A DNA stretch of 64,000 nucleotides from Epinephelus fuscoguttatus. Its lineage: Eukaryota > Chordata > Actinopteri > Perciformes > Serranidae. A model generated the notes under the pieces. It did no database searches. It had not been told where the DNA came from and worked only from the letters and a program-made list of their open reading frames with translations. Positions 21,058 through 63,949 of this stretch are shown piece by piece; position 1 is the stretch's first letter, and every line of letters starts with the position of its first letter. Made by a program: the position numbers and the translations under genes. The DNA lies in contig NC_064773.1 of NCBI RefSeq assembly GCF_011397635.1, forward strand, positions 28,495,449-28,559,448, in the 5' to 3' direction.

Positions 21058-21100
<43 letters not shown>

Positions 21101-22135
21101 AAGTTCTACCACTACACCAAAACTACTGCAAGTCCTGCTACACTACCCTACTCACTAGTACAAGTTTGGCTACTACTATATACTAGTTCTAGTACTACCA
21201 TGCCACTAACTAGTTCCACTACTACACCACCAACTATTGCAAGTTCTTCTACTACTGCTATACCACTAACTATTACAAGTTCTACAACTACAAAACGAAC
21301 AACTGCAAGTTCTACCACTACTACTACTACAACACTACTGACTATTACAAGTTCAAGTGCTACTATACACTATAACTACTTCTGCTTCCTCCACGCCACT
21401 TTTACAAGTTCTACAACTACACTATTATACATTCTACTACTACACCACTCTTGCAAGTTCTACAACCATTTCAAGTTCAACTACTACACTACTCACCATT
21501 GCAAGTTCAACTACTACTTTACACAATTGCTAGTTCTACTACTCCCACACCACTAACACGTTCTACTACTACACCTCTAACTATTGCAAGTTTTACCACT
21601 ACACCACCATCTTAAGTTCTACTACTACACTATTATTGCAAGTTTAACAATTATACCACTAATTATTGCCAGTTCTACAACTACACCACCAATCACTGCA
21701 AGTTCTACTACTACTAGTACACTACTCGCTATTGCTACACACTATTGCTCACCATTACAACTATACACTGTTGCTAGTTCTGGTACTGCTACACCACTTG
21801 CTATTGCAAGTTCTACTACTACACCACTTCTATTGCAAATTCTACTACTACACCACTGTTGCAAGTTCTTCTACTACTAGCCTACTGCTACACCACTAAC
21901 TATTGCAAGTTCTACTACTACACCACTGTTGCAAGTTCTTCTACTACTAGCCTACTACTACACCACTTCTATTGCAAGTTCTACTACTACACCACTGTTG
22001 CAAGTTCTTCTACTACTAGCCTACTGCTACACCACTAACTACTGCAAGTTCTACTACACCACTGTTGCAAGTTCTTCTACTACTACACCACTAACTATTG
22101 CAAGTTCTACTACAGCACTGTTGCAAGTTCTTCTT

Positions 22136-22201
<66 letters not shown>

Positions 22202-22400
22202 ACTATTGCAAGTTCAACAACTACTATACATTGTTGCTAGTTCTAGTATTCCCACACCACTAACTAACAAACAAGATCTACTACTACCACGTCACTAACT
22301 TGCTAGTTCTACTATTCCTACTCCACTATTGCTATTTCTAGTTCTACTACTTCTACACCACTGCCATTACTACTTCTGCAGTTACCACTGTGAACACGTC
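21055..22400. repeat. CTA microsatellite expanded into a complex satellite
   Basis: Pure (CTA)n tracts lie at about 21058-21101 and 22133-22201. Between them are degenerate units of the form ATTGCAAGTTCTACTACTAC followed by ACCACT, and a longer unit with CACTGTTGCAAGTTCTTC repeated at least four times (21855-22080). It translates as Ser/Thr-rich in one frame only because of its composition. Confidence 0.9.
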
Positions 22401-31158: not shown

Positions 31159-31529
31159 AATATGGTGAGTACTCACTGACTTTTTTTTTTAAGGAAAAGT
31201 GATTAAAACAGCAATTAGACCATCATGGGAATCAGCAACATGCTCCCCTCCACCAAAAACTACTGTTTATGTGCATTTGTGCAAAGCATTTACCCTCAGC
31301 AGAGTGTATCGGTTACTATGATTATGGTTACTCACCGTTCCACTTGGTGCAACCTCAAAGTGGAAACGTGTGTGAGAATGAATGGCGATGGGTGTTGCTG
31401 AAAAATACGTCATTTTATGGTCATCTTTCTTTTGTGAATGAAGCCAGAACAGGAGCAGACAAGTAACCCTGCCTCTGATTCTTCAGCCTCTCACATCATC
31501 TCTTTTTTACCTTCTTAGAACCACAAACA

Positions 31530-31641
31530 ATGCCAAACTGGGGAGGAGGCAACAAGTGTGCAGCGTGCCGTGGGACAGTTTACCACGCTGAGGAAGTGCA
31601 GTGTGACGGGAAGTGTTTCCACAAATGCTGTTTTCTTTGCA
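31530..31641 (+). CDS. csrp2: csrp2 coding exon 1 (LIM1, first finger)
   Basis: Residues 1-37, [15 protein letters not shown] through CFLC, with six of the LIM1 zinc ligand region residues up to C37. The acceptor TTCTTAG is 11 nt upstream of the ATG. The donor is GTAAGT, phase 1. Confidence 0.95.
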
Positions 31642-34600
31642 GTAAGTACAGCTGTAACACCTAGAGATCAAATTTAAAGGAAGATAGCGGTGTTTTGCAT
31701 GTTTTAGCCCAGTGGTTCTCAAATGGTGTGCCGTGATGCCAATCCAGGTGTGTTGTGGGCTTTTGTGATAACCACACATTGCAATATTCATCTGGCTGTG
31801 TCAGTATGTTGTGCGCACCCATTTTCTGATAAAGAGGCAATCTGTCCTCTTTGAGTTGGTTTGCAGTGTAGACAGTTGCCAATGCTGGAATAGCAACTTT
31901 CTCTGCAGGATTCTCTGCCACTGAATCGGGCTTTCACCATCTGAAGCGACATGTACACGCATCTGCATTTGTAGAACAGCTAGTAGAACGCCCTCTCTCT
32001 GAAATGACCTGTGATTGGTCAAAGTCTCCCACCACTGGCTAGATTTTCTAAAGCCTATAAAAGTCAAGAGGAGGTGCGGACGTCTAGTGTTCTCTCAGTC
32101 CACTTCAAACACAATACGTTCAAAGGTTATTATGGGAGGTTTTGCCCAATAAAGCCAAAAATTAAACTGTCTACTAACTCCAGCTTTAAAATGAGAGCCA
32201 ACTCCTAAGTCTCAGATGTCTGAGTTTTCCCATTAGCAAATTGTGGACAAACACATTTGTTTTTTGCTTTGAAGAAGAAAGTCTCAGACAGCTAAGACAT
32301 TTTAGTAGCGGTTGCCCAACTTTGCCAAAAGTCTTAAGTGTAATTATATTCTCAAAAGACCTGTCAAGAGCAGATATTCTTCAAACTGCACATATTATTT
32401 GTTTTTATAATACAGTAAAGGACATCTGTTTGACCGTTTATGCTGTGTTATTATATTCTTGGTTGAAACAGCAGAGAGCTATGAAAGATCAGGAGACAGA
32501 CTGGTAAACTCAGTTTCACCTCTCCGCAGCTCATCAAAGGGAGCTCTCCCTGACATCTCTCTCACTGGTCATCGGTTGTTGATTTCACGCCGCATTATTA
32601 TCAGTTTGTTGGACGGGTGGGCAGCTTGTCCTGCTCCTGAACCGTCCTTGAAATGTCAGTGAAGATGTTCCAGCAAAGAGCTCGTACAGAGACTGGGATT
32701 ATACAGACGCTTTCATTTAGCTGCTATCAGGAGAACACCAAAGCAATCTGAGCCACAAAAGATGAGTTTATTTTTTCCAGCGGCTCTCATACAAAGGCAG
32801 CTTTGTTAAACACTCCCACTGTGGAGATGTTGAGCGGGGGAACTTGGTGTCCTTGGCTCTCAGTTGCCCTTTCCACCAGTGTCTCTGTTTGACATTTTTT
32901 GACATTTAACACTTTTCATTTCTGTGTATGAGAGGCAGCTATATACTGACAGAAATGTTACACATTTGCAAACAGAGGCTCATATGACTCTTGGTGCTTT
33001 CTTTTTGATTTGCTTATACTCTATACCAGCGGCGACGCGTGAAGATGAATGACCTAACTGTAGTGGAGGGGAACTTGAAATACTTGTGACAGAAATAAAA
33101 AGAAACCATAACAATTGCAAAGAAGATGGTGAAACAAATATGAGGATTTAGGAGCGCCTGATTGGACATAGAGAGATTTTCTAAAAAGCTGGCAAAGCTT
33201 TTATTTTGAAAGCATTACGAGATCAGAGAGACATGAGTGGAGTCATTTTTTTCAGCTAGTTGTATGAAATCTTAAACCAGAAACAGACGGTCACACAGTG
33301 CAGGCTGGTGTGTGAAGAATTCAGCTAATCCCAGAAGTCAGTGTGCAGTCTTAAGCCACTGAAATGCTTTTATTTTTTTAAACAAAGCCTTCTTTACTTG
33401 GTACAAACCTGCCAAAAACTGATCTCTCCAACAGCTACTAGAGAGTTTTAATCTAATGGATCCCACACTGACATCAGAAAAACTAGTTATGCTGAAAATC
33501 TGGCTAAATGCATTGGATGTTCAAAGGTTTGTAACCTGAAAGGGTTTGAAGTGTCAGTTGACACTTTAAGGTCTCAGATCCTCACTTTAAGAATTAAAAC
33601 AAAACTTATTCCAATGTTCTAAGTCTCACAACTTCCTCTATTCATACACAGTTTACTCAGACTGCTTTTCGTGCAGTGTGGCTAACACATCAGGTGACAT
33701 CTCTCAGTTTTATACACTTGACTGGACTTCTGTTTCAACTGACCTTTTCGGCTCACACTTCAACACCTTTCATTGCTTGACATTCAAACTGAAGTTTCCT
33801 CTTCAATCTAAATTGACATTTCAACTACATTAGGTTCTTACACATGAACTGAAACGTCAGCATCTCTCAGCCCTTCATTTTAATTGCCACTTCAACTTCT
33901 ATCAGTATTATGAACGTTTTCAACAGCGAGCACACTTCATTTTAGCCTTTTCTATTCAAAAGTAATATTTTACAGCATGGTCCTATTTCTTCTTAAACCC
34001 AAGACTTAACAGAACATTTCAGTGACATCGTGATCACAGGAAAATACTGTATTTCTTTGTGAAGTGACACCATTCCACTAATGTCACTGCCTCTGTGTGT
34101 GTGTGTCCTTAGTGGTCTGCAGGAAGGGATTAGACAGCACAACACTGGCTATTCATGGCGAGGAGATCTACTGCAAGTCATGCTACGGGAAGAAGTATGG
34201 CCCTAAAGGCTACGGCTACGGCCAGGGGGCGGGCACGCTCAACATGGACCGAGGAGAGCGGCTGGGAATCAAACACGAAGAGTAAGTTGAGTACTGTGAT
34301 TAAGATGATTATTTCATTCATGGTGGAAACAAAGTTATCTGCTAAAGTATGCCATGTGGTCAGAAGTCATATGTTTTAAATGGTATTACATGGTGTTGGG
34401 CAGTATGACGCAGGATGTAAACAGCAATACTTCCATAATTGTCATGTAATCCATCATCGCTGTATATGCTGTTGCTCAGCGTTGTGTTGTGCTTCTGTCT
34501 TCCTGTTTGTCGCCCGCCATGCTTCGTCAGAGCTGTGTTGCTATCCACTCCTGTTCTGCAGTGTTCCATCTGATTGGATTATAAAATGCTGTATAAGATG

Positions 34601-36041: not shown

Positions 36042-39000
36042 GCTGGTACATATCATGGACGTATAAATTAAATATTCCATCCTCAGCTGGAGTTTGATTG
36101 TCCACTGCAGTGCTGTTGACGCAGCAGTGTTTTCTTTCCATATTGCGTTTTTACAACTTGCTTTGATGCTATGTTTCAAGCTGCCAAACAGAACCAGCTG
36201 GTAAATTGTACCAGTGACGTCAGCGTTTCCATTTCTAGCTCAGAGAAGTTTCTATTCATGGCGGTATGACGTCTCTCCATGTTGTAAACTGTAGGTGCGA
36301 GGCCTCTAAACTGACAATATATTGGGGCGGGAAATGTAAATAGCGACTGTTTTCAGCTGCCACATTTTTAACGCCCAATCATTCCTACGCTGTGATAGGC
36401 GAAATAAGAACATTTGTTCACATGTGAACCCTATTGTAAGATGATTCACTGGTTTGTACATTAGATTGATAAATGAGGGCCATGATGTGTAAACATAAAA
36501 ACAAACAGGAAAACACAGACCCACACACACCTCCTGTGAATGTTTACTCGTGCCTCAGACGTCAGGTGATGACTGTTATGAAAGAGTTTATTATGTAACC
36601 CAGCAGGATCCCACGTTCCCCCCTCTCTGTCCTCTGCCACAAAGGCCTTCATTCAGGGGCCACTGGGGCTGGCAGTTACCCTTCGATAAGCACCGCTCCA
36701 GGGCCCCAGGGCGCCCTGCTCACTTTCCCACCACTGGCTGAGGACAGAGAGAGTGTTATTAGAGGAGAAGGGTCTGCCAGGTTTATTTCTGAACTTTTTG
36801 TGTTTTAAAAATGGTATTGCGGTCATTTATGAAGTTGTCTCAACAGATAATAATTGATTTAAGAATTAATGTTTAACTGATACATAACTGAGGTATTTAT
36901 TACTGCGATATGTCAAAGTTTTGGGTCATGCTTGGTTCACTTTTAGTAAATGAGTAAATGCTTTCACAAGAAAAGAGGAGGTTCCGGTACAGAGAGAGTC
37001 TCAGTTTCATTTTAGAATCACATATCCACCCCTTAAGAAAAAGTTACTACAAAATGATCTTTAAAAAAAGATTTTCTTTCATATTAATTACTTACAAATG
37101 ATCAGCTTCAACCTCAAGATTACTGAAAGATGGTGATTTGTGGAAACAATTTGCCATGTGCTTTTTACGTTTTGTCCCGCAGGACACACACCCACAGACC
37201 GACCACCAACCCCAACCCATCCAAATATGCCCAGAAGTTTGGAGGCTCAGAGAAATGTCCCCGGTGTGGAGACTCTGTGTATGCAGCTGAGAAGATCATG
37301 GGGGCAGGCAAGGTGAGAGTTTTATCTCAAGTGTCCTCTACTCTCTGTTTACAACACAGACCTATAGTGATGCTCTCACGCTGCTTGTTTTGACTGCTTG
37401 ACCACTCTTATCCAAAACTTGAAGATATTTACCAGTGTTGGAAGGAAGTATTTGAATCACTTACTTAAGGAGGCCCCTGTTACGTACTTTCTTTGTTTAC
37501 ATGCTTTAATTGAAAAAAGTGTTTTTTCAACTCAACTATCAGAATTGTTGATGAATAATTTGAGGGTAGAGTATTTGGTCATTACCCTTCCAGTGTTAAA
37601 CAAATTAGGATCATTGTTCATCTCTATATCTATGATATAACTGACAAGAAAGCCAGAAAGATGTGTTCGCAGAATAAAAAGTACACTTTGGATGCAGTCT
37701 GCACCGTCAGGCTTTCAAATCGAGGCATCTGCCAAGATATTAGCCAAGTTGACTATTTCACTATTGGAGCCAAGTTGTAAAAATGATGACTCTTGGCTGT
37801 GCCTGAGAATCTGATCTCATACCACAGGATTTAAGGATGTGCTCCCGGAACTCTGTTCTGGTGTTTTGTGTTCACACTAATGAAACTTAATGTGTTTCCC
37901 AGAACTTAAGCTGCAGTGTGAACCAGGTTATAATGACGTTTTCAAATGTGGAGTGTGTATTCAACTTTACAGAACGATCATTATGTACAGTGTGAGCATG
38001 AACAGCCACCAACAGAAATCAAACCTCTAACCCGAGCAGTGTTGGGTCCTTGAACTGCACAGGACCACAGTTTACACCACAAACCTCCGGGGTAAACCTG
38101 GTTTGACTGGATTGAACGCACATGGTTTATAATGTGCTCAGCCGCATGCAAGAGGTTTGGTGTGGTCTCTCCTAATGAGAGAACACTGATCCTGTTTTTC
38201 TGATTGAAGCCATATCATCAAGTTTGGATGGGAGCATTCCGAACAGCTGGGGTTAATCGTGTGAGGCTGTCTGGACACTGGGGCTTTGGCAGATGTTGTT
38301 GACATAGATTTACAGTAGATGAAGTCATGAGGCTCGCACTCTTGAGATGTATCAGCAGGATGTTTAGTTCTGAGAAGCTGCTCAGATGAAAACCTGCCCA
38401 CAGAGGAGCAAAGATTTGTGTTCTGAGGATTTCTGTTTCCTCTAAAAATGGGAGGGTTAGCATTTCCTGTGACTGATCACATGCAGATTCACACATCATG
38501 AGCTGTTTAATAGCAGGTGATGTCATCAGGCAGAGAGCTGTTAATGTGTGTTTCCTAATGGGAGGAAATCTATCAGGCTCCGCTCATTGGTTAAAGCATG
38601 ACCTGTAATTTTCTGTGAAATGAAGACAGTCAGAAAAGCCCGCAGGTTTGGGAGTTGCTTTGATGGGGTTTGACGAAGGAAATGACGACATAAGCTCCAT
38701 GAAACATCTGCTTTTATCAGTCGTAAATATCTGCAAACAGAATCTTTGTTTTGTCAGACAGTGTTAGGTCAATTTAGCAGAACAGCGTGAAGACAGACTT
38801 GAACAGCTGCCACTTTGGGTATAAATGTAAAATTCTCTTTCTCCTCCTAGCCGTGGCACAAGACATGCTTCCGCTGTGCAAAATGTGGCAAGAGCCTGGA
38901 GTCAACCACTCAGACTGAGAAAGATGGAGAACTCTATTGCAAAGGTGAGATGAAACATCTGAGATGAAATGACGTATAGAATTACAACATAGTGTTTCTT

Positions 39001-47063: not shown

Positions 47064-47202
47064 CTACACCAGCTGGTAGCCCGAGCCAGATGTCTGGTCG
47101 TATTCTATTGTGTACTGCGTGGTCCAGTCCACCGCCACGGGCCGGATCAGACCGCAGCAGCGGATCTCGAAGAAATCTATGAGATTTCTGATGCAGCCAT
47201 GA
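47064..47202 (-). CDS. zdhhc17: zdhhc17 last coding exon
   Basis: Encodes [20 protein letters not shown] to [13 protein letters not shown] with TAG (CTA on the + strand at 47064-47066). This is the characteristic cytosolic C-terminus of ZDHHC17. Confidence 0.96.
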
Positions 47203-50200
47203 CTGCAGAGGGACAGAGACATGAGGGTCAGTGTGAGGAAACAGGGTCAATGATCATATTAACACCCTGTTATATAATTAAAGTGTACACCCACATAGTT
47301 TCTAAGAAATGTCAGATCATTGAAAAGGTACTTCACCTATTGTCTTATTTATTCCACATGTTCTTCCTTGTCAAAACCTAGCACCTAATGTAGCTTCAAG
47401 CCGCTAGCCTGCAGCAGGGAATGAGCAGCAGGCTACAGAGGTCCAGTAAGCTCACTTCTTTCCAACTCCACACCTCCAAACTGTTTTCATTTTCACACTT
47501 TTAGTCTTTGGACCGAACTGAAGCTGACTCAAGTGACATCACTTGAGGATATTTCGCAGATTTTACACAGCTCGCTCTGAAGAAATAAACAGCTTTTCAC
47601 ACATGTGCAGCGCTACCCAACAGCTGGAAGGAGATGATTGTGGAGTTCCCCTTTGACCTCTCCTTAACAGAGTGCCCCAGGAATGAGTCCTGAAACCTGG
47701 AAATGAGTTCGCATTTTCGCATTCTCAGCTCCTTTGTCTCAAAGTCAATGGGTTTTTGGTTAGATGCCTGAAATAAGGTGGCTAGCATAAGCTCAAGAGA
47801 CTTTCATGTTTTGTTCTACAGCATAAATACATAAGTAAATACCCTGTTTGTGAACTCTGAAGCTGAGATGTGTCTTAAAAAGGCTGTTGCTAACAAGTGG
47901 CTAAATGTGACTACAGAACGTCATCACGCTAGCTTTAATGCCTCGTTGTGGTGGGGAAGTTAAACTCATGCTACCGTGGTGTAGTTCCTTAGCTTTTCAC
48001 TACTGCCGATTGCGTTAAGGCTTCAAAAACCATAAAAGTGGCGTTCATTTTTGCAGATTATCTTGCTGAACAAAACCTGTTAACGTGTATCATAAACATT
48101 TGTTTGCCACAGAGCTAATTTTCTGCAATACTCCAAAAATCCAATGGAAAAATCCCATAGGCTTTTTGACGAGGGAACCTCTGCGTCGGCCTACAGAAAA
48201 ATATCATGCTGCTTCATTCATAAACAAGGAAGTACTCGATTATCGATTTAGACACATTTTAGGATGAGCGGAGATTATTTCTCTTTGTTTGACAACACTA
48301 CACGTTTAGTTAGCAGGACGTCTACAGGTATACAACTCCATTTAAGAGTGATTTTTGGATAAATCATCTTTTCTTATTAGAGCGTTGCAGGTTATTACAG
48401 GTAGTATATAGATAGATAGATAGTTAGGTAGATAGACAGACAGATAGAAGACTAATTACTTTCAAAGCCTGATAATTATAAAATTGAACTGAAGACATTT
48501 TAAGACTTTTAAGGACCTGCAGACACCCTAGTTCGGCTTTGCTGTCAGCTTCCCGACTCGTCTGAAAAAAGACAAAAGGGGTAAAAGAGAGAGAGAGATC
48601 ACGCAAATGAGCTAAGAGCACGGATCTGGCAGGCGAGCTGAGAGAGAGCCAGCGAATGAGAAAAATGAAAGGTTATTTTCTTAAGATTTACTATGTGACG
48701 CAGACAGAGGCTCTTTCCTTCATTTTCCTGACCTGCATTTACATCCAACTTGCAGCAATAATATGGAGGAGTAGCCTGGCTGTCATCAGTGAGAAAAAAA
48801 AACTTAAGGTGTCTTTGTTTTCAATGTGATAGGCGGGCACACAGAACTGCAGGCTGCAGAGTTTGCTCACTCTTGTACCGTCATGTTTTGTCTTACATCA
48901 GCAGACTAATTTGCCTAATCTTCACAGGTCTTTAGTTCACTGTCGAAACACAGGTAGCAATGCCCTGAAGGGAACTTTAGTTCCTTAGAAAGTACTTCCT
49001 GGGACTAAATGCCCTGGGAACTTTTGGTGGAAACAGGGCTTATATTTTTTTTTTCCTACTTTGGGGTGAACCAGCCCTGTAATGCTATTACTTAAACCCA
49101 CTGAAATGATGATTCAGCTTTCTTAACAAGTAAAAGATCACATACTTGAAGGGACTTTCGATGGACGTGGCTGTGACTTTAAAGTGCTTGTATCTCCGAG
49201 CGTTCATCCTCTCGTTGGTGGTGATCCCCAGAGCCGCGATCTGAGAGAGGGAAAAGCAAAGAGGTCAGCCGACCTTTCATACAGTAACACAGACATTTAC
49301 TGAAATTCAAAGATTTTAGCTTCAGGGTACAAGAACCTATGCTTACAAATCAAAAGCTCTATTGTAAATCCTACATTACAAAATGGGTGGACCAAATGTA
49401 AATCCAGACCTGGTAGAGCTGACACATGATGAGCACGGCCACCCACATGAAGTGGAACACGCTGTTGAGGAACATCCAGAACATCCAGGGAGAGCAGGAG
49501 GCGATCTGGGTCAGATAGAGCCAGAAACCATCCTTGGCGTAACTGGTGGCACAGTGGATCCTCCAGTCTGAGGGGAGAAGAGAGAGTGAAGGCGTTAGCA
49601 GAGAAATAAAACAAATGAGGTGTGAAAGGAGGGAAAGAAATTTAGAAGAAGTTCTCTACTCACAGGAAATGCAGCCGTACATCATCCAGCAGATCATGCA
49701 GAGCAGGAAGAACAGATAACCCATGAAGTAGCGGTGATTCCCACTTCCTGTGGAGGAGAAACAAGCATGTCATGTCTCATTCACATCACCTTAGTTTGTT
49801 AAGTTGGCTGCCTCTGCCAACGGAACGGAAGGAACGATGAGAGAAATGCTGTAGAAGTCCAGAAGTGATAGAGATAACAGGAACACATATCAAAAACTTT
49901 TTTCTTTAAGTGCAGTTCAGTTCTACTAAAATATTTATGTGCACACTAAGAGGAGGTTTGTAGACCGGGCTCGTAATAAAAACAAGACAGATGTGCTAAC
50001 AGCTCTGTGGTACTGCACTTCACAGAGAGATTACAATTCATCCTGAGGGGAACATGAATAACTGTGATACATTTTCTGGCGACCCCCCCCTAAGAGATGA
50101 CAGATGATACAAAGGAACCCATAACTGCATCATTTACAACCGTGTTTATGATATATCTAAAATCTGTTTCCAGGCTTCTGGTCCCAATAGTCATTAAGTG

Positions 50201-53200
50201 GGGCTTTCTGTTTGTTCAGACAGTTTCCACACATTTAAAGCTTCTTCCTGACCGCCTGGCTTCAAAGTGGAAGTGCTACAAGACCCCTGCACTCCTTCCT
50301 CCCCCCACTGTCTCTGGTCTGTTTCACCGACGCCGCCTGACACAATCCTGGACACTCAATTGCCCTTCAGCTTAATTTTGCCATCTTTTTTGTTGGCATC
50401 TTGTCATTAAAGCTTTCGCCAATGTGTTGGGTTAAGTTTTATTAGTTTTATCACTGAACACTCGGGCTGGACCTGTGGACAAATGACAGTGTCTCCCATA
50501 CATTGAATTATTTGTGGCGGCCTGCCACAATATCAACACTGTCTGCCACATCTTCATTTTTTATTTTACTTTTTTCATTATTTAAAGGTCTAGTATATAG
50601 GATTTAGTGACATCTAGTGGTGAGGTTGCAGAAGTGAAACTTTTTGTGTGTTTTAAGTGTGAGGTAAAACTACGGTGGCCGATGAGAAAACACAAATAGC
50701 CCTATCTAGAACCAGTGAATGGTTTGTCTGTTCTGGGCTACTGTAAAAACAACATGGGAGAGGACCCGTGCCACATGTGGATATATACTGCTCATTCTAA
50801 GGTTATGAAAACACAAGGATTTGTAGTTTCTGGTGATTAGTTAGTAGTTATGAAGATTATATACAATTTCTGCTATCAGATGTCGCAAAGTGTATACAGT
50901 GGACCTTTAATCTGGGTAATATCAGGGACCAGGGACAGTTGGTAAGAGTCCACCTGCAAACATACAATGACAGAGCTAACTGTTAGCATCACACAACTAA
51001 CTTCAGCTAACGATTATTGACGGTATTACCAACATAGTCGAGCCGTTTCGGCATTGGTGTGAGTTTGTTGGGACTGTTTAACGGCTTGGTGTTGCATGTT
51101 AGCTGCTGCTGTGTTAGCTTGTGCTAACTGGGCAGACGTTGAACTGAGGAGAGCAGCTCCAGAGACAGTCCTTCAAGTGTGGGTCTAACCCAAAACTGTA
51201 CAAAATAATGGTTTGAGTCACCGTGAAGTCACCCATTGCTTTGTGAACTCCTGTTGCAAAGCCTCAAGTTTGGTATTTTGGTGGTTCCCATCTTGTTTTT
51301 TTGGAGCCAGAAGTGACCATATTTGGACAAGAGGGTGGAGCTGTGGAGGAGCGAGGGATGGACAGCCTGTCACTCTAGCTGCCCCTCTCTTAATTATGCA
51401 TAAATTTGGGCCTTAATAAAATGTAAACAGGTGACTTTTATAAAAGATCACTCCTTATATCAGTTGTTATGAAGGAGGGTATTAGCTATAGAGACCAAAA
51501 CTGTTTTTTGCACCAGGCTGTAAATATGTTTATTTCTGCCGTAAAGTTGGACATTTTAACATGCAGGTCTATGGGAATTGACTCGCTTCTGGAGCCAGCC
51601 TCTAGTGGTAATTGGATGAACTGCATTTTTTTTCTGCATTAGCTTTATTTTTCAGCCTCAGAGTTTTGCAGCTGATGTCTTACTCGTGCAACACAAACAC
51701 TGAGTCTTATAAATACTAATCTTAAATCTGCTAACGTGCCGTTTCTGTGCTTCGGCAAGCCTATTATTATCAGCATTTATGCATGTCTATAATTTCTCCA
51801 ACATGTTTTTCTGTTGTTTACCAGAGCCAGAATGAGTTAAGAGCAGAACCCTCAGTCAGATCACGTGTTGCTTCATAAAGTGGAATTTGGAGCTGATAAA
51901 ACACAATATAAAGCCACAACCCTCAGTCAGGGGAAGAAAATTACGGGGAGCCATTTGTTTGTAAGTGCATGTGTTGTTGACATCCTCGTAAATTTGCTGT
52001 GTTGCTGACATACCGACACAGTTCCCCACCCAGGGACAGTGGTGGTCGAACTTGGCGATGCAGCGGTTGCACACGGCGCAGTGTTTGGACCTGATGGGCT
52101 TCCGTATCTGGAAGGAAAGAGTCAGACAAGCAGTCAAAAGTGGTTTTATTATTGGTATTGTTTTCCTCTGTATATATATCACATTGTAAGTCAGAATTTA
52201 CCAAGCAGGTACTGCAGAATATGCTCAGATCCAGGCTGCCTGTCTCTGCCAGCTCCACAATTGTCTGGAGAAAGGAAACAAGAAACAAAAGCAGGATTTA
52301 AAAAAAAAAAAAAAGCAGACAGAGACATGACAGAAAAATGAATGAACAACTGAGAAATTCATCTCGCCAAGGTCTATTTGGCAACGTAACAAAAGACCTA
52401 CTGACAGCTGAGGCTGGGATTTCCAGCTGAACGATTACACTGGAAGCTCGGCTGATTCACGGTGAACAAAAGCTAACTGTGATTTACAGTTTCATTCAGT
52501 CTTTGGATTATTGTGATTTTAAGGCAAAATACTTTTCATTAGTGGTTTGGTTTTTATCCAATCTGCACAAATAAGATTTGTTGTCCTCATATGTGTGGTT
52601 TTTTTTTGTCAGTTTGCTCTTACGGCATTACATCACTGTGCAAATAAACAAACATGAGAGGAATACAAGAGGTAGGAAGGGATCCTCTGCAGGGAGAGGA
52701 AAGCTTTGAAGCCTTTGATCCAGTGGTGAGTCCTGTGCTAACAATGCAGGGTAAATTTAGCTTTTCATCAATCACTGGGCCTGGTACAAAGCACTGCCTC
52801 TGTTGTCCCCCATTAGAGTGTGATAATGAGGGACAGAGAGACAGAGAGGCCAGAGGATCAGCCGCTGAGCAGCCTGATCTCTGCAGTGAATTCAAAGCAG
52901 CTTTCTGCTGTGAACTGGAAATTTCAGAGCTGAAGGAACATCACACATGATGTCAGAGTACAACGTGTGAAAAAAGTTCACGTTAAAGCTAGTGATCAGA
53001 ACGCCTGTATTCACTACATCAACATTAACACTTCGTATAGTGAAATATGACCAAAAAAACCAAACAAACAAAAAACGTTTCTTTCAAACGATGATCCTGC
53101 TGATTGTTTCTTTGCTGTAACTTTACCTTTTTCTTCTGCTCCTCTGACGCTTTGATAATTCCTGGGTCAGACTTCCAGGATTTGCCAAAGTTGTAGAACA

Positions 53201-56200
53201 GAGCCAGGGTGTTTATCAGGAAGGGCACATGGACAGTGGCAAAGGGTAGATGTGCAGTGAGGTTAAGGAACACAATGGACAAACAGCATCTCAGCAGAGT
53301 TTTTGTAAAGACAGGTTTACAGACAACTGCTGGGTTTTTACCACAATCAGATCCTGTTCATTCTAACCACAGTACTACTGCCAGAGGACTGATGACATCA
53401 AGTAGGAACCTTAGAAACCATGTTTGGTGAGATCATAGTGACCTTGATCTTTGTCCTTCAATCACAAAATTCTAATCAGATCATTCTTGAGTCCAAGTGG
53501 ACATTTGTGCCAAATTTGAAGAAATTCCCTTCAAGGTGTTCTTGGCATATAATGATTACGAGAATGAGACGGACTCAAAGTCACAGTGACCTTGACCTTT
53601 GTCCACCAAATTCTAATCAGTTCATCCTTGAGTCCAAGTAGCCATTTGTGCCAAATTTGGAAAAAAATGACCACCACATTTTTGCTCAATTGAAAGAAAA
53701 TCTCTCATGGCATTCTTGAGAAATTTTTATTCATGAGAATGGGACGGATGGATGGACTACCCTGCCGGTGCAGTGGCATAAAAAAAGAACAAGGCTCAAC
53801 TTGTAACCCACAGCTAACTGACTCCATGGCAACATTATACTTCCTGTTTACAGCCCCCAAAGCAGGCTCTGAAACCCCCCGCTTTAACATAGAGACTTAG
53901 CCTGGATCTGTCTGATAACAAGTATGTTATGTCATTTAAAAATAAATCACTCTCAAAGGTCCTTATCTAGTTTACCAAAGCAGTTCCTCATTGATATAAG
54001 CAGCTAAACTGCTTTATTGTGAACGTTTAATCATAAATACCCAGTTGATGACAACTCCAAATGACATAAGAAAGACAAACAGTATGTTTGCACTGGCCTC
54101 TACTTCAGTATTGTGCAGGACAAACACTTGGCCTGTCACACTGTTTCAGACACACTTCTAAACAAATGTCAGTAAAACCATTTCAGACATCAATCTGAGT
54201 CAGATCATTACTTCATAGTAACATGACTAACAGGCAGACTGTGACGCAAAGAGCAGCTCGGTCTCATCTCGACTCACCCAGTCAGGGAGAGATCATCTCT
54301 GTCTGTCACCACAGCTCATCATGACTTCCATTCATTGAACACATACAATGTAGACCATGATGCAGTCCTGCTCTCACAGAGGAAACTCTGTTTATGTGTG
54401 TAACATTTTTATTACACAACTAACAGCACAAACAAACTGGTTATGTGACAGTGTATTACAGTCAGTGTGTAAATGTTAGGTTAATAAAAGACTGTGCATG
54501 CTCACATGACGAGGCTGATAGTGTAGGTATGTAATTCTATTTCATCACACCATTCCTAACCACATAAACAAATAAGCTGCAGGTTCTACAGTCTTTTGCC
54601 CAACTATGGAGAGATAGGAGTGTATTCTGTGACATCTGTGGGTGGGGAAAGTGAAGACTGTAACTGATTAGTAGCAGAGTCAGTCATGCAGGTGTGCATG
54701 AGTCAGCTGAATCCCACAGGAATACAGCCAAGTGACACAGAGAGGCCCAGACTGAAATGTGACACATGCTATATGTGTGACTGAAACTATTGGAGTAAAA
54801 TACAATTTGGCAAAACAACTATGATATAATCATCACAGTGGATCAAACTCTGGAACAACAACACAGATGAGGAATATTCTGTTTCAACTGTGGCATAACA
54901 TGAAAATAAGTAAACTGCAAGAGTTTCAGTAGGAAGCATGCTTAACATACGTTACAGTGGCCACTTTAAAATACCATTTTTTGGGTAAATGGCTGCACAG
55001 GGGTGGCTATGCAACCTCTTCGTGGATAGAGTATAGTTTCACACGTGTCTTTTGCATCTTCTTACTCTTTCAAGAAAAGATTCATGTGGCAGCTGGCAGA
55101 CCACATAGCTTCCACTTATAGCAGACTTACTAAGCTTAAAATGAAACACCTGCATGGCTGCTATTATAAGTTTAATACATGCCAAAAATATATATGAGAG
55201 CTAGCTGAATCTCACAGGTTCTCACAATGTGAAGAATCGTCTACCAAGTGTATTCAGAGAGTCTACCACCATGCTATAGAGGCTCTGAGGCTGTACTTCG
55301 GCACAGCAGTGGTTGGAGCTCAGACCTGATGATGGTGCAAGAGAAAAAGCGATGAAGTTAGTTAGGGAAACACAACTGTCCATACAAAATGTTACAATCC
55401 AGTCAGTTGGTGACATTTCAGTCTGGACCAAAGTGATTGATAACCGAGTGACGAACACTGCCATCCCTAGAGCCATGCCACTAGTGTGACTGAGAAGCAG
55501 TCCTGTCTCAGGCATTTGCTGGACATCCAAACCTAAATGACAACTACTTCTACTGATCCATCAAAACCTTTTTATTCTATCGTCTCAACCCAAACTGGAT
55601 CATCCTCTTCATCAAAGGTTCTCGATCCAGGGTTTCCACAGCTTCTGAAACATTAAATTCAAGGACTTCTGATCTGATCAATATGGGGGTGCCCGGACCC
55701 CACTTAGAGAGAAGAGTTTCTTTTCTTTGACTGACTTGTAGGGATGAGGTGTAACATCTCATTTTATTTCAGTTGATACTTCAACCTTTTATTCAAAGTA
55801 AACTCTCAGATCCGTAATGACACAACACACTTGATGTGAACACCAGCCACAAAAAGATGATACTAAAATTCTCTGAAGCATTAACAAGGGTTTGTGCCCC
55901 TAACGGTCTTTTGGGAACGTAGTTACTCATAGCCACGAGGGCCACACCATAAGCATAGAAACAACAAGCCCCAACAGCAACCTTGTTGGTGAGGAAGAGC
56001 CAATAGCAGTTGTGGTCATCCCTCTGGCACAGTTATGACTTCATTAATAAGCACTTTCGTAGCGCTGACAGAGTGAAAGAGGCCTCTATAAGCCCTGACA
56101 TGCCACATGAAGCCACTGATCTTCATAAGTATCTCCATAAAGGACTGGCTGTTGACATTATCCCCTACTGAATGGCCTAATAAGTAAAACACTCCTCACT

Positions 56201-59200
56201 GGTCCACTAACTCAAGGCCCAGTTCAGATACAGAGATTGTGCCAGTGATCAATGAAGCTCCTCAGATAAATGGGTTTCGATGGTTCCTCGGGGAGACATG
56301 GTCATCACCTTCTGTTAGCACCCATTAATCTTTTGAAAGGCTGAGTGGTGAGGTTTATCTGACAACAGCTGACAGCAAAGACAGAGCAAGAGGGTCACCG
56401 ACAGATTTATCAGTGTGGCATGTCAGACTTGAAATGACATGCAGACATACAGTACGATAGAGAAATGAATGCGTGCAGTACAGTACAAACTCTAGGGCAT
56501 TGTTCACTCTGTTATTTTAAGACATTCACCTGCTGGAAATGCATTTATGAACAACGCCTACAGAGGAAAATATGATCCGAGTCTGGGGAAGACAAAAAAG
56601 TACCATCACACAGCTCCACCCGTGTCATTTGATCTGATTTCAACCACAGGCCTGAGGAGGATAATGAGCTCACAATGGCAGAAAAGTGGGTCAGAACCGG
56701 TGGATAAAAAGTTTCCACCTGGAAGGAGGAACAAAGGTGTGCAAGATACTGGACCGCGTAACAACACCGTCCGACAGAGACGTGGTGAGAAATGTGGAAC
56801 AATGAAATCAGAACAACAATCATGAAATGTCTCCTCTCAGATCTGATCAGATAATCAGGCCAGGATGCTTTAAACCAGATGTTGGAATCCTTTAGCCCGT
56901 GACCTACATTAAAGGTTTATACTTTCATCCTCAAATCCAAGTTCAATAGATGTAAAACTGCAAGCTCGTACAAAATAGGGAACTCAACCAGCAACCCATG
57001 CTGGGCCCCAGTCCTCTAAAGGGTCACAGAGAGTAAACTGAAGCCTCACCTGACAGACTGAAGCTGATTTTGCTTCAACTTCTCACCCAACGCCACAGTA
57101 ATTCCTTTTTTTTTTGGGCATCCCTTGAAGCCCCCACCACTGCAGCTTTGACACGCTACCCACATTTAACTGGCATTTTCGCCACAATGCCTGATTAGGT
57201 GTGAATGCAGCCTTAAAGGCTTAGAGGCATCATTATGGTTCAAACCAGGGGTTTATTGGATGGTCAAACAGCTTCAGAAAACCCCTTCCCTCACAGCCCT
57301 CTGATGTCAGAGTCAAGGGAACTGTGTCCTACAAGTTTTATAACTTTCCAAAACCAACAATCTGACCCACGAACATTCTGAGCTACTCTTTCTTAAAGCC
57401 AGAAACCAGAGAAGTCTTACACTTAGATGTCGTCAGGTATAAAGTCTGGGGCTGCTCCATCGACAATGAATGGGAAACTGGTTTTGTGGGCCAACATGTT
57501 TTCTTTTTCATACCCAAATGATCTTTCCCTATTGTTGTGTTCTCAGTTATGAAACAGAAAATGTATTCATATACTCATAACATTCCCTTGGGTGCTCTCA
57601 GTGTCATCTATAACATCTTCTATAACTCATTGTCTATGGAGCGGCTCCAGACTTTATGCCCATATGACATCACAAATTTTAGTTTCAGCACTCTAGTTTT
57701 AGGGTTTGGGTGACAGTTGTTCATGTTTTCGAAGACTGACCTTTGGAATAACATGCATGAATTGTGAGAATTGGTATAGTTCTGCTTTAAATGAATTTCC
57801 AGAGGGAAAAAAGCACTTATAGTAATCCAAGTTACGGTGATCAACTGCTTAGATGGATCAAACATCTTCAGACAGAATCGTCACTATACAAATTCTATTT
57901 AAATAATTTGCCGATAGTAATCACTTCGTCCGCTAACAGTGTGCATCGAAATCACGACGAGAAAAAGAAAGTAATTTACTCTCAACGAAAAATAAAGTCT
58001 CCTCTAAGCTTATGACAAACTGCCAGAAACAAGCCGACAAGATGCAGCAGTGACACTTGGTGTTCCTCTGGCACTACATTGTGTAGTCTACTCAGACAAC
58101 AAGAAACAGTCATGGTTGCTCGAGATAGAGACAGAAAACCAATGTGCGCGGTGGTTAAGGTAGTCATTACTTCATATTTATGCACATTCATCTGCAATCA
58201 TTGAGTCTGCTCTCTCTCTGTGGCTGGCTTTTCACCCTGCCTTCAATTGTGATAGTCTGACACAGCTATAAACCCGTTTTCCTTCAGACCTGTTCAGGCG
58301 ACATGTTTTACAAACGTATTTATTTTGACCCTAACTCAACCTCAACTGTGGTGGCCATCGGCTTGTTCTGCTTGTTGGTAGCAGCGTCAATAGTCTCATA
58401 CATTAGCTTTGAATTTATAGTTAACCTCTAGTTAAAACAGGCAGAGCTCCTGATTTGCATATCCCTTGATTTGCATAAATAAATGCGATTAGAAAAAGTA
58501 TTTGTATGCAATAACTGTCTACCTGAATGAGAGAGTGTCCACAGTTTGCCACTGATACTGATGTCTGCAATGCCGCAGGAGAAAGGCTAAACTCCCCGAG
58601 CTGTAGGGAACATGACACAGCATGTCTGTCAAATGAAAGGCAGGCAAACAACACCATTACTGGAGAGAGATTCATGGCAGACTCACAGGCATAATGACAG
58701 CCTCGATAGCCGGAGGGCGAAAGAGAAAACCTGAAAGGAGTCATTTTATCACAAGGAAACGTCTTCAAACAAGAAAGAACCTGCTTGTAGTCAAAGGGGC
58801 AACTTTTCATCCATGTACGAACAAACATTTACCAGATTACAGGATGTAACGTCACCTCGCCACTGCTCTTTGAAGATGAAAGCATATGTGAAAACCCGGC
58901 TAAGGGAGCAGGTCAAGAGCACGGGTGTCATTGCAGTTCCTTCCATCAATTTTATGTCCAATTGACATGCCATACACCCATGAAAAACATGCTTAAAACA
59001 CATCTGTAGTAGTACTTTTAATAACTGGAAAGGCCTCAGAGCACAGTTTTCTCTTTTAATAAGCTTAGGTCAAAGACATCTTATGCTCCCTTCCCATTAG
59101 TGGAGCAGCGAGGCATAAAATTAAATACCTTCCACAAACGAGAACTCCCCTTTCACCTACGGCAATTAGGAGCTTCCATAAAGCAAGGCAATTCGTCTAT

Positions 59201-62200
59201 GAACAAAAACTGTGAAAGCAGCAGCGCTGAGGTCAACAGAAACCCTTTGGAGTCACTCTGCTGGGCTTCACCCAGCAGCTGCTACACACCAAACTCCCTC
59301 TTCACAATTCCAACGCAGCAACAGAGACTGGAAACTAAGCAGCATGTTCACTGAGACACAATCTACAGTCTTACTGAAACATCCATCATAGTGGGACCTT
59401 AGGGCTTGTGGCACATCATGCCTGCATTTGTTTAACATAATTTCCATCAACCCCTTCTGCTCTTTACATTAACCCTCCTCCTTTTCTGCGTCTCCTGCAA
59501 CTTTATCTCACTGATGTTCCAGCCGGCTAACACGAGGATTTTTCTCCTCTTCCACCACAACGCATCACAGGCAGCAGAAAGCAGTAAAAATCTGTTTTAC
59601 AAGTCCATATTTTATTGAGATCCTCCCTGCTTGGAGATCACTCATAATTGCCAAATCCAGAAACTGGCCTAACAGATTTATAAAAGCTCTTGGCTTATGT
59701 TGAACGACTTGTGCAATTGTGAACAAGCCAAGTGTAAATAGCCCATTTCAACCGGCATGTGACACAACTGCAAGGCTTTGGATTGACGTCTTTTTTCCAG
59801 ACAGTGTGAGCCAGGTCTTGAAGCTCTGGTATGCCTCACACACAAGTGCATGAATGAGACTAAAACAGTGGGACAGAGGAGCTCAGATATCACTTATCAC
59901 ATCTACTGAAAAGAGCTACAGAGGACTAAACTATAACTTGACTCGACTCATGGCCTAATGTTGCATTGAATGTAGGGGAACCGGACACAGTCACTGTTCA
60001 GTGAACTCCTCAGCATTACTTGGGATTAAGGGACCATTATTAAAAATCTGAAAGGTTGGTGCTTGATCCCAGAAACAGCCCAAAACACTGAACTTCTCTA
60101 ACACAGAAAGTCCCTCTGAACAAGACTCCTCAAGTATCAGCTAAATGCCTAAACTCTAAAGGATTTGACTTAACAAGATTCATCCATCACAGACTGAAGT
60201 GTAGCATTTGCCAACATGGCAGTTAGGAACACAATTACTTAAGGTTTGAACTGGAAAAACCTTTCTCATCAAAATGTGAGTGTGATCAACTACCAGAACA
60301 AAGCCTGATGGGAGGTCATCCCAATTTTGTTTTCTCTTATTTTTTTTTTTTTTACAGACCTCCTAAGTATCCACTGGTTGCCTGGCAACTGCAAGAAACA
60401 GTTGAACACATTCCCTGTAAAAACACAACTTGCCATTTTTTTATACAGATTCAACAAACAGGATATAACATGTTAATTTGTGAGCTTTAAACATCATTTT
60501 CTTATATTTGGACAGAGCCAGGCTAGCTGTCTGACTTTGGATTATCTTAGCCTTTATGCTAAGCTAAGCTAAGCTTATCGTCATGTTTTCCGCACAGATA
60601 TGAATCATTCTTCCGTCTAACTCTGCAAGAACAAAAAAAAAAAAAAAAAAAAAGGATTTCCCAAAATGTCAAACTATTCCGTTAAGAAAACAAAGTCAAA
60701 ACTGATGACAGAAAAGGATATCGTTCCAGAACCAGTAGAACCAGGTGGCGTACATCCAGAACTTGGTGGCCAGATAGATTCCCAGAGGGAGAGCGCTGTG
60801 CATGGAGTGGTCGAAGAAAGCCCTGCGGAGAGAGAAGAGTAGGAGGGACGGAGGTGTCAGCATTCTTAATAAAATTTGCCATTGTCTCATTTCTGCATTG
60901 CACTTCCTGTCAATCAAACAGTGCTCACAGTACTAAAAACATCTGCTTCACCCTGACCCCGTCATACTTGACACAGCCTGGCAATAAGACTAACTGTACA
61001 ACAAATTGTGGCTTCTTTCTGTAGCGGTGGTCAAATCATATTAGTCAGAATTGTCCTTTGACACTACACTACACTACAGACACTGCTCTGCTCATAACTT
61101 ATGTGTTCAATACATCAAGACACTCTTCCTGCAGATGTGAAACTGCTCACTGTAGCACATATGCACTGATGCAAACCTAAAACTTTGAGACAGCAGTAAA
61201 AATAAACCAAACCATGACCTGATGACACACTACAGTTAGACTCGCCAGGACTCAATAATTACGATTGTTTTTTCACCAACTGAGTATTCCAAGAATGTCA
61301 GTGAACATGACGCTAACACATTGGGCAGTGTGTGTTATTGTAGTCAGAGAGCTAACAGTAGTGAACGGCACAACAAACTAGAACAGCAGGACCAGATGGC
61401 AGTGCTAATGGGGCTTGAGTGAGTATTTGTCTCTGCATGGTGTGGAATGTTGGAAATTGTATGTGTGTTTGCACGTGAGAATATGTGCAAGGACAGTTTA
61501 TGTGGTGGTGCCAATGAGACTGTGTGTATTCAATGGTGTAAGAAGTAATGCAGATTTAATTTTGAAAGATCATTATCTCAAAATGCAAAATCCAAAGTTG
61601 GCTAAAAACACGACAACACTAACTCAGGGTAATAAAAAGTTAGCGATGAAAGCTAAATCTGTCCAAACTAGCCTTAATGAACATAACTAACTTAGGTATT
61701 AAGAGAATCAAAGGCAAAAAAAGTGTCTTTTATGTAACTGAGACGTACTTGGAGAGGAACTGCACGGTGACCCAGACGCCGGCGTACATGAGGCCTTTGA
61801 TCAGCCAGGAGTCAATGTCTAGGTCAGCGATGAAACCAACTAGCCAGATGACCAGGAAGGGTGTTCCTAGCATCACCTTCTGCCTGAACTCCTGCAGGAG
61901 GAGAGGAAGGAGACAGATGAGGAGACAGGAAAAATCAGGAAGATAGGACATAAAGGAGGAGAGAAGATGTAATAGAAGTGGTGAAAGAGAGGGCATGGAG
62001 AGAAGGCGGATTAGTGGGGAAAAAGTTGAAGAGGAGACAGAGAAAGAAACAGATGTAAGTTGGACAAGAGATGAAACAAGTCAGGAAAGACAAAAATGGA
62101 AAACACAGATGAGAGTTTAGCAAGAAGGGAGTCCTAGTTCACATTTTATAGCTATGAAAGGTTTTCAAATCTGTTGTAAGAGTAAAAATATGTATTATAA

Positions 62201-63949
62201 TTCAAATCAGTCAAGGTAATGAATCACTTGTCATCAAGTGACAGAAGACAAATACAGGCTTTCTCTGTGTCAAATCATGGCTAGACTTAAGGTTTCTAGA
62301 GGGCAGTGCATGGAACTCTGAAACACTTTGCAAGAACTCCTTGACTGGCTGTGGTTCAGGAGGTAGAGCCACAATAGCACTGATTAATCGAATGATTGTT
62401 ATCTAGATCCCTGGTTCCTCCATGTATCCTTGGGCAAGATTCTGAACCCAACACTGGGTGTCACACACCCATTAGGTGTTTGAGTGTTTGTGAAAGGTTA
62501 CTGAGTAGCAGGTGGCACCTAGGATGGTAGCCTTGTCCACCAGTGTGTGAATGTGGAAATGGGTGAATGTGACATGTCGTGTTCAAGTGCTTTGCGTGGT
62601 CAGCAGGCACTATCGTAATGCAAGTCTCTTCCATTTACCATGAAGACAAAAGAAGTTCATGAACCTTCCTCTACATTCACCCGACATCCACCCTGGCCCA
62701 TTAATGTAAGGAAAAAAACATTTCTACGTTCGAAACAAATGCAAAAATAAAAGTATCTTGGCTAGTGGTCTCAGACTTTTAGATGCAACTGTTTGATAAA
62801 GTCAAAATGCCAGGGTATAAAGAATGTGTCCAACCCCTGGCATAATTAAATCAGATTTTGTAGTTCATACAAATAAAGCATTTTAAAGCCATTTTTAATT
62901 TAACACTTTGATTTGGCGAGACAACGACGAAAGTAATCCAAGGAAGTTAAATGTATTCTACGAATCTACAAACGACCTGTGAAGCTCTACTCACACTAGG
63001 GATCTGGACTAAAGGTGAGGCAAACCTCTGAGTCTTGATTCTAGTTGTCTTTTTGTATAAAAACCTACTGTCTAGTCCTAAAATTTACCTTAATTAACTT
63101 ATAATATCCCAGCAGACAAGGGGAGAGACAACACCACATTCAAGGTTAGAGTCTGAAGTAGCATGCACTGTCTTCAAAACATTCTAAAACATTCTGACAT
63201 AGAAACAAACACAGATGAATGTGCATTGGTGAACTATATTCTGGCTGTGGCTGATACGTTAGTTTGCTGTGACCAAGTAAATATCTGAAGGTCCCTCCTT
63301 TCTTTGATTTCTACAAAAAGTTCAATCAAGTTCAAAGCTCGAGTAGAAGAGGTTATTTATCAGGATAAGTATCAGTTATTACCCACTGCTGTCAGACTGG
63401 ATGCAATAAAAGTCATGCTGTTTGTGCATTTTGCAGAAGTTGTAAGGTTACCCATAACAGGTCATTTTAAGAGTCATCCGCTTCCTGTCAGACTGTCTGC
63501 TGATCGGGAACTTGAAAACTAATAAATGTCTGGACTGAAACGTAATCACATCCCCAGACATGCTGTGACACTGCAGCAGTGCAAGAGTTCAGTGTGGACA
63601 GACTGGTCTGAAAATGTATCTATTTGAACTGGGACGGTCAAACAGGAAGCCACAAAGGTGTGTGTGTGTGTGTTTATTGCATTTATTACAGGTGATTCCA
63701 TTAAAAAGATTCTGAAATTTTAGCAGTAGCACATAATTCACATTGATTGATGCCTGCCTGACTTTCTCTTTTGATATATGATGTATTGTATTTGAACATG
63801 TTTGTGTGTGTGTGTGTGTGTACCTTGTCCATCTTCAGTCTCTTCAGGTAGGATGGGCTGTCGTAGCCTTTGGCCTGCCGTGCTTCCTGTAAGTGATTGA
63901 TCATCCAAACGTTCTTCCTTTGCTTGGCAAGATCTAGCGGTGTTTCACC
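47064..63949 (-). CDS. zdhhc17: Palmitoyltransferase ZDHHC17 / HIP14, C-terminal ten coding exons (partial)
   Basis: ZDHHC17 is a Golgi and vesicle membrane S-acyltransferase whose cytosolic ankyrin repeats recruit substrates such as huntingtin, SNAP25 and CSP. Exons in transcript order: 63949-63824, 61891-61749, 60822-60722, 53251-53127, 52264-52202, 52107-52014, 49747-49664, 49567-49410, 49240-49146, 47202-47064. They join in frame into 1128 nt, 375 residues plus stop. They hold the end of the ankyrin region, two membrane spans, a loop, two more spans, the Cys-rich DHHC domain (DHHCPW, catalytic Cys at fragment residue 210, equal to human Cys467 by length), two last spans and the GSGYQLV C-terminus. 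Nine junctions are normal except the third, an AT-AC intron. The N-terminal ~257 residues lie beyond 64000. The paralogue ZDHHC13 normally lacks DHHC (DQHC), so ZDHHC17 is favoured. Confidence 0.96.
47203..49145 (-). other. zdhhc17 last intron
   Basis: It has a degenerate (GATA)n tract at about 48405-48448 and segments at 47500-47780 and 47900-48300 that look like old dispersed fish repeats. No exon was seen. Confidence 0.4.
49146..49240 (-). CDS. zdhhc17: zdhhc17 exon: TTxE-type region
   Basis: Encodes [20 protein letters not shown] to SIESPF. TTNE is the TTxE motif conserved after the last membrane span of DHHC enzymes. It ends in phase 2 at GTATGT. Confidence 0.95.
49410..49567 (-). CDS. 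zdhhc17: zdhhc17 exon: lumenal loop and transmembrane segment 6
   Basis: Encodes [20 protein letters not shown], then [20 protein letters not shown] and CQLYQ. The donor is CAG|GTCTGG, a weak match after the GT, but no better donor is near and the frame is right. Confidence 0.94.
49664..49747 (-). CDS. zdhhc17: zdhhc17 exon: transmembrane segment 5
   Basis: 28 codons' worth, [20 protein letters not shown] to GCIS, a hydrophobic span directly after the DHHC core. The acceptor is TCCACAG; the donor is GTGAGT. Confidence 0.95.
49748..52013 (-). other. zdhhc17 intron upstream of transmembrane-5 exon
   Basis: It contains the TTAA MITE at 50582 and, at about 51195-51620, a dispersed repeat with the phrases GGAGCCAGAAGTGACCATAT and GTCTATGGGAATTGACTCGC that I know from many fish genomes. 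No exon. Confidence 0.5.
50582..50910. mobile_element. TTAA-target MITE, 329 bp
   Basis: TTAA at 50582-50585 and 50907-50910 flank inverted ends AGGTCTAGTATATAGG and TGTATACAGTGGACCT. A TTAA duplication fits piggyBac or Kolobok superfamilies. The interior (CTATCTAGAACCAGTG, TCTGGGCTACTGTA) matches the right half of the 30415-31158 element. Confidence 0.75.
52014..52107 (-). CDS. zdhhc17: zdhhc17 exon: DHHC catalytic core
   Basis: Encodes [20 protein letters not shown] then [12 protein letters not shown], with all zinc ligands and the acyl-accepting Cys. The acceptor is TTCCAG and the donor GTATGT, phase 1. Confidence 0.97.
52202..52264 (-). CDS. zdhhc17: zdhhc17 exon: start of Cys-rich domain
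   Basis: Only 21 codons, [20 protein letters not shown] plus Leu, which carry the first zinc cysteine pair (CSTC). Phase 0 at both ends; the donor is GTAAAT. Confidence 0.95.
53127..53251 (-). CDS. zdhhc17: zdhhc17 exon: transmembrane segment 4 and start of cytosolic loop
   Basis: Begins AT|CTACCC after a terminal AC, completing the split Asp codon (G|AT). It encodes [20 protein letters not shown] and [20 protein letters not shown]. The donor is GTAAAG. Confidence 0.94.
53430..53760. repeat. Two-copy ~150-bp tandem repeat in the U12 intron
   Basis: TGACCTTGATCTTTGTCC (near 53441) recurs as TGACCTTGACCTTTGTCC (near 53588). Each is followed by TCTAATCAG, TTGAGTCCAAGT and TTTGTGCCAAATTTG. It ends ATGGGACGGATGGATGGAC. 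This is a family common in teleosts; the class is unknown to me. Confidence 0.75.
53761..60500 (-). other. Interior of the zdhhc17 AT-AC intron
   Basis: No gene, exon or classified element was recognised in this long stretch. Confidence 0.4.
60500..60690. mobile_element. MITE remnant beside the AT-AC 5' splice site
   Basis: It contains GCCAGGCTAGCTGTCTGACT, TATGCTAAGCTAAGCTAAGC and, at the right end, CCCAAAATGTCAAACTATTCC. These are phrases from an abundant fish non-autonomous element. A 21-A run sits inside at about 60633-60653. Its right end is about 35 nt from the 5' splice site. Confidence 0.6.
60722..60822 (-). CDS. zdhhc17: zdhhc17 exon: transmembrane segment 3
   Basis: Encodes [20 protein letters not shown] then a Trp/Phe/Tyr-rich span ending FWN and the first base of an Asp codon. 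The acceptor is CCGCAG. The 3' boundary is the AT-AC 5' splice site, not GT. Confidence 0.94.
60823..61748 (-). other. zdhhc17 intron between TM2 and TM3 exons
   Basis: About 0.9 kb with ordinary GTACGT and CCGCAG ends. Nothing else recognised. Confidence 0.5.
61749..61891 (-). CDS. zdhhc17: zdhhc17 exon: transmembrane segments 1-2
   Basis: Encodes [20 protein letters not shown] and on to VTVQFLSK. There are two hydrophobic spans with a short DLDIDSW loop between them. The acceptor is CTGCAG; the donor is AA|GTACGT. Confidence 0.95.
62342..62641 (+). mobile_element. tRNA-derived SINE, degenerate
   Basis: It starts TGGCTGTGGTTCAGGAGGTA (A-box region) with a decayed B box near GATCCCTGGTTCCTCC. 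The body is typical: CCTTGGGCAAGATTCTGAAC, GTGTGTGAATGTGG, and TGCAAGTC...CCATTTACCAT at the end. Confidence 0.7.
63803..63821. repeat. (GT)n microsatellite abutting a zdhhc17 donor
   Basis: About 9 GT units on the + strand; in the transcript the intron begins GTACACACAC. A second short GT run is at 63659-63673. Confidence 0.9.
63824..63949 (-). CDS. zdhhc17: zdhhc17 exon: end of ankyrin region
   Basis: 42 codons, [20 protein letters not shown] to LKRLKMDK, phase 0 at both ends. It closes the last ankyrin repeat and starts the linker to the membrane. A (GT)n tract on the + strand begins 2 nt beyond the donor. Confidence 0.95.

Follow-up and report, generated by a model that had tools for sequence, protein, structure and literature searches.

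An AT-AC intron with exact U12-type splice signals in zdhhc17 of Epinephelus fuscoguttatus

In zebrafish, 612 genes have been reported to carry 662 U12-type introns (PMC9501576), and the AT-AC subtype accounts for 22% of the zebrafish members of this class and for 26% of the human ones (PMC7367187, Table 2), or about 22% in human by another count (PMC6717393). The PROX1/prospero intron is AT-AC and U12-type in human and forms a twintron in fly (PMC2831892, Table 2), and PHB2 carries an AT-AC U12 intron in both human and fly (PMC2831892). ZDHHC8, like zdhhc17 a DHHC palmitoyltransferase gene, has a U12-type intron as well, and it is included among the 19 fly U12 introns in Table 2 of PMC2831892, from which Hip14 is absent. 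A search of the full text of papers for ZDHHC17/HIP14 together with minor-intron terms found no such report. The string 'zdhhc' does not occur in the main text of any of PMC9501576, PMC7367187, PMC6717393, PMC10639083, PMC12332006 and PMC13216214, and PMC4863743 concerns ZDHHC16 and SF3B1.

We analyzed a 64,000-nt stretch of the Epinephelus fuscoguttatus genome (the window) that contains much of a zdhhc17 gene on its minus strand. All 17 exons were placed with a working version of the human ZDHHC17 protein sequence, exon ends were anchored by hand, and the gene was completed beyond the window with a further three 10-kb pieces of the contig, which added about 28.5 kb of new sequence. The joined model runs from 47064 to past the window end with 17 exons and 16 introns, and its 622 codons form a single stop-free open frame that aligns without gaps to this working human protein (559/622 identical). 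Independently of that sequence, a PDB search with the ankyrin part of the model leads to chains that bear the names Huntingtin-interacting protein 14 and Palmitoyltransferase ZDHHC17, with a best E of 5.7e-157. A Pfam search identifies ankyrin repeats and a DHHC domain (E 6.3e-37), with the DHHC motif at residue 454. On these sequence features we assign the gene to zdhhc17, in agreement with the first-pass annotation of the two exons that flank the intron described below. The exons of the joined model from exon 8 to the stop codon are:

63824..63949, minus strand, exon 8
61749..61891, minus strand, exon 9
60722..60822, minus strand, exon 10, 101 nt, protein end FYWFWN-D
53127..53251, minus strand, exon 11, 125 nt
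52202..52264, minus strand, exon 12
52014..52107, minus strand, exon 13, contains the DHHC motif
49664..49747, minus strand, exon 14
49410..49567, minus strand, exon 15
49146..49240, minus strand, exon 16
47064..47202, minus strand, exon 17, coding part up to the stop codon

A protein search of the same genome returned 31 matches, among which zdhhc17 is the only close one; the rest, which match by way of the DHHC region, presumably belong to further genes of the DHHC family. The two best of these (C6 and C18; 45-47% identity) were inspected over 20 kb each for a paralogue sharing the intron, and neither showed upstream exons homologous to those of zdhhc17. With one short query, a 59-aa piece, zdhhc13 was not recognised in the genome (17 matches, the best being zdhhc17 itself).

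Elsewhere in the window, open stretches on the plus strand at about 12000-17600 resemble e2f7 exons, with paired pieces of a DNA-binding domain and one piece rich in proline and serine. LIM-domain-like exons follow on the same strand at about 31479-31661, 34082-34282 and 37127-37313 (stop-to-stop stretches), which we take to resemble csrp2. An order of e2f7, csrp2 and zdhhc17 would fit the gene order of human 12q21. The 5′ splice site pattern [AG]TATCC[TAC][TCA] was not found on the plus strand before 37022. A 1.2-kb CTA-rich tandem-repeat array, its repeat periods ranging from 3 to 139 bases, lies at 21058-22224.

In the hand-anchored zdhhc17 model, 15 of the 16 introns have GT-AG ends and one, intron 10, has AT-AC ends. 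The 5′ splice site of AT-AC U12-type introns follows the consensus [AG]TATCCTTT, and the U12-type branch site has a consensus like TTCCTTAAC. The features of intron 10 are:

60721..53252, minus strand, intron 10 of 16, U12-type AT-AC, 7,470 bp, phase 1 (model and signals)
60713..60721, minus strand, 5′ splice site ATATCCTTT (consensus match)
53262..53270, minus strand, branch-site motif TTCCTTAAC (consensus match)
53252..53253, minus strand, 3′ terminal dinucleotide AC (sequence)
60722/53251, minus strand, exon-exon junction in the AT-AC model, TGGAACG + ATCTACCC

The intron starts with ATATCCTTTT and ends with GTTCCTTAACCTCACTGCAC. Its 5′ splice site matches TATCCTTT at 8/8 positions (+2 to +9), compared with 1-4/8 in the other 15 zdhhc17 introns, and its branch site matches at 9/9 positions, compared with a best score of 3-7/9 in the last 40 nt of the others. 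Ahead of its 3′ end the pyrimidine fraction is 0.75, and the other zdhhc17 introns span 0.62-1.00, so a missing polypyrimidine tract, as expected for the class, does not mark this intron out. Exon 10 terminates in TGGAACG and exon 11 opens with ATCTACCCT, so that the join is in phase 1 and reads WND/LPF. Between the second branch-site A and the intron end we counted 11 nt, the described optimum for the distance from branch to 3′ splice site being 11-13 nt (PMC3584512). The termini, 5′ splice site, branch site, spacing and frame all fit a U12-type AT-AC intron, and we conclude from these signals that intron 10 almost certainly belongs to the AT-AC subtype of minor spliceosomal introns. The first-pass annotation had placed such an intron at 53252..60721, with AT and AC ends, a consensus 5′ splice site and branch site, a spacing of about 11 nt and a WND-LPF join; the model bears out each of these points, the boundaries to the base and the join through the gapless alignment to the working human protein.

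To compare other possible joins, we scanned splice pairs with donors from -60 to about +200 nt of the junction and acceptors from -400 to about +45 nt. Within these ranges 31 pairs are in frame and stop-free (5 GT-AG, 26 AT-AC or AT-AG, 0 GC-AG), and only the proposed AT-AC pair yields WND-LPF directly. The earlier claim that no GT-AG pair joins the exons in frame is therefore not literally correct, given the five stop-free pairs; what stands is that none of them restores the sequence. Through these five pairs, cryptic GT-AG sites could join the exons into a protein that gains or loses a few residues. We rejected such joins, which we regard as extremely improbable: each inserts or deletes residues in an otherwise gapless alignment, and the three acceptors used (intron ends 53290, 53327 and 53330) lack a pyrimidine tract by eye. 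An extra exon within intron 10 was likewise rejected. The protein misses nothing, and because the 622-residue alignment is gapless, no exon is lacking between exons 10 and 11.

AT-AC ends can also be removed by the major (U2) spliceosome, as in some sodium-channel introns, and such U2-spliced AT-AC introns are known (PMC2831892). Those described carry G at +5, however, whereas intron 10 has C at +5 together with a full U12 branch site. On these two features we reject U2 splicing of intron 10, which we judge very improbable, and retain the U12-type assignment.

The motifs are rare enough to argue against a chance arrangement. Over both strands of the window taken together, ATATCCTTT has a single copy, the 5′ splice site of intron 10, and TTCCTTAAC has two, one of them the branch site. 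Genome-wide, ATATCCTTT is present in 10,219 copies on both strands of 1.047 Gb (about 4.9e-6 per strand position), and its reversed-letter control in 8,513. The 3′ pattern TTCCTTAAC-N(6-10)-YAC was found 1,154 times on both strands (about 5.5e-7 per strand position), a count in which a few places appear twice because their ends differ, and its reversed-letter control 1,098 times. Because each motif is this rare per strand position, the probability that both would be present by accident at a junction forced by the protein is negligible. In viral contigs we found 14 pattern matches and no relative.

The genome also contains matches to the minor-spliceosome snRNAs, and those for U11, U12 and U6atac carry the stretches expected to pair with intron 10. 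Searching the same genome, we found sequence matches to U11 (121.8 bits), U12 (128.8), U6atac (132.9) and U4atac (99.4 and 89.1), all above the Rfam cut-offs, with the best 40-49 candidates scored per family; U4atac thus has at least two matches and each of the other three snRNAs at least one. The window itself has no Rfam match at gathering scores. The U12 match contains GTAAGGAA, whose complement TTCCTTAC equals the branch motif when a single A is bulged out; the U11 match begins AAAAAGGG, and the U6atac match contains AAAGGAGAGA. Free U11 duplex energies do not separate the intron 10 donor (-7.5, 21-nt stretch) from the GT donors of zdhhc17, 2 of 15 of which are lower (-9.0 and -8.5, 14-16-nt stretches).

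For comparison we examined homologs of two genes with described AT-AC U12 introns. In the prox gene on C14, the coding sequence ...MSLN is followed by ATATCCTTT at the 5′ splice site, and the 3′ side reads GCCTTAAC-N(10)-AC before the exon ATCCAGGAGGG, with GCCTTAACGTAAATGTGAAC at the intron end and ATCCAGGAG at the exon start. This is the AT-AC signature seen in zdhhc17 intron 10, in another gene and with GCCTTAAC rather than TTCCTTAAC as the branch site. Five prox-like copies (C24, C11 x2, C23 and C14; loci L064-L068) have U12-like branch motifs preceding the homeodomain exon, the 5/5 count resting on a pattern that was broadened once the motifs had been seen (to TTCTTAAC, TCCTTAAT and GCCTTAAC besides TCCTTAAC); the 5′ splice site ATATCCTTT was traced in one of the five, on C14. 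By eye, the apparent intron ends are not alike across the prox copies: both AC and AG are seen, which suggests that the paralogues differ in subtype.

The phb2 positive control failed: on the coding strand, by eye, the copies on C10 and C15 (loci L051-L053; further, less similar matches lie on C19) have no U12-like intron at an exon end. These copies show a few loose motif matches, none at an exon end, and the exon ends inspected, at approximate boundaries, resemble ordinary GT-AG sites. Loss or type switch of the AT-AC U12 intron in fish is possible.

Structurally, intron 10 is no different from U12-type AT-AC introns of exact consensus, whether in its ends, its 5′ splice site, its branch site or the distance from the latter to the 3′ end; what sets it apart is its host gene, which the papers searched do not pair with minor introns. 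ZDHHC8, another family member with a described minor intron, carries the GT-AG subtype, in contrast to the AT-AC ends of zdhhc17 intron 10. Intron 10 is thus an ordinary member of a well-known class found in hundreds of vertebrate genes, a class in which the AT-AC subtype makes up 22% in zebrafish. The first-pass description of AT-AC introns as a small minority of U12 introns is right as to minority, but 'small' needs tempering in view of the shares tabulated in PMC7367187, Table 2 (zebrafish 22%, human 26%). We expect intron 10 to be conserved among vertebrates.

From what is established for the class, U11 would pair with the 5′ splice site of intron 10, U12 would pair with TTCCTTAAC leaving the branch A bulged out, and U6atac would take the place of U11, after which the ends would be joined to give WND-LPF. 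These signals give sound grounds to expect that zdhhc17 depends on the minor spliceosome. Translation through a retained intron 10 gives a short in-frame extension that stops ahead of the DHHC motif:

60696..60698, minus strand, first in-frame stop (TGA) upon intron 10 retention (translation, coordinates hand-counted)

Were minor splicing to fail, this stop, with exon junctions downstream, would lead to degradation of the message or to a truncated non-catalytic protein.

The ZDHHC17 palmitoyltransferase has a neuronal role. One further proposal would extend the minor-spliceosome explanation, not compete with it: retention of intron 10 may be regulated, with slow splicing limiting ZDHHC17 output or yielding a truncated, ankyrin-only protein. 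The short extension with its stop before the DHHC motif is consistent with this proposal, but the U12-type introns retained in zebrafish zrsr2 mutants are shorter ones (median 451 bp vs 1,398 bp for those not retained; PMC9501576), whereas intron 10 measures 7,470 bp, and we consider regulated retention unlikely. That intron 10 acts as a control point, at which minor-spliceosome activity sets the amount of catalytic ZDHHC17 in the neuron, is a decidedly doubtful proposal.

Intron 10 is a clear further example of an AT-AC intron, with signals that match the consensus exactly, in a palmitoyltransferase gene. If the intron is common to other vertebrates, zdhhc17 would be a candidate among the transcripts hit by failed minor splicing. 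If it were indeed a control point, minor-spliceosome disease would reach protein palmitoylation via zdhhc17.
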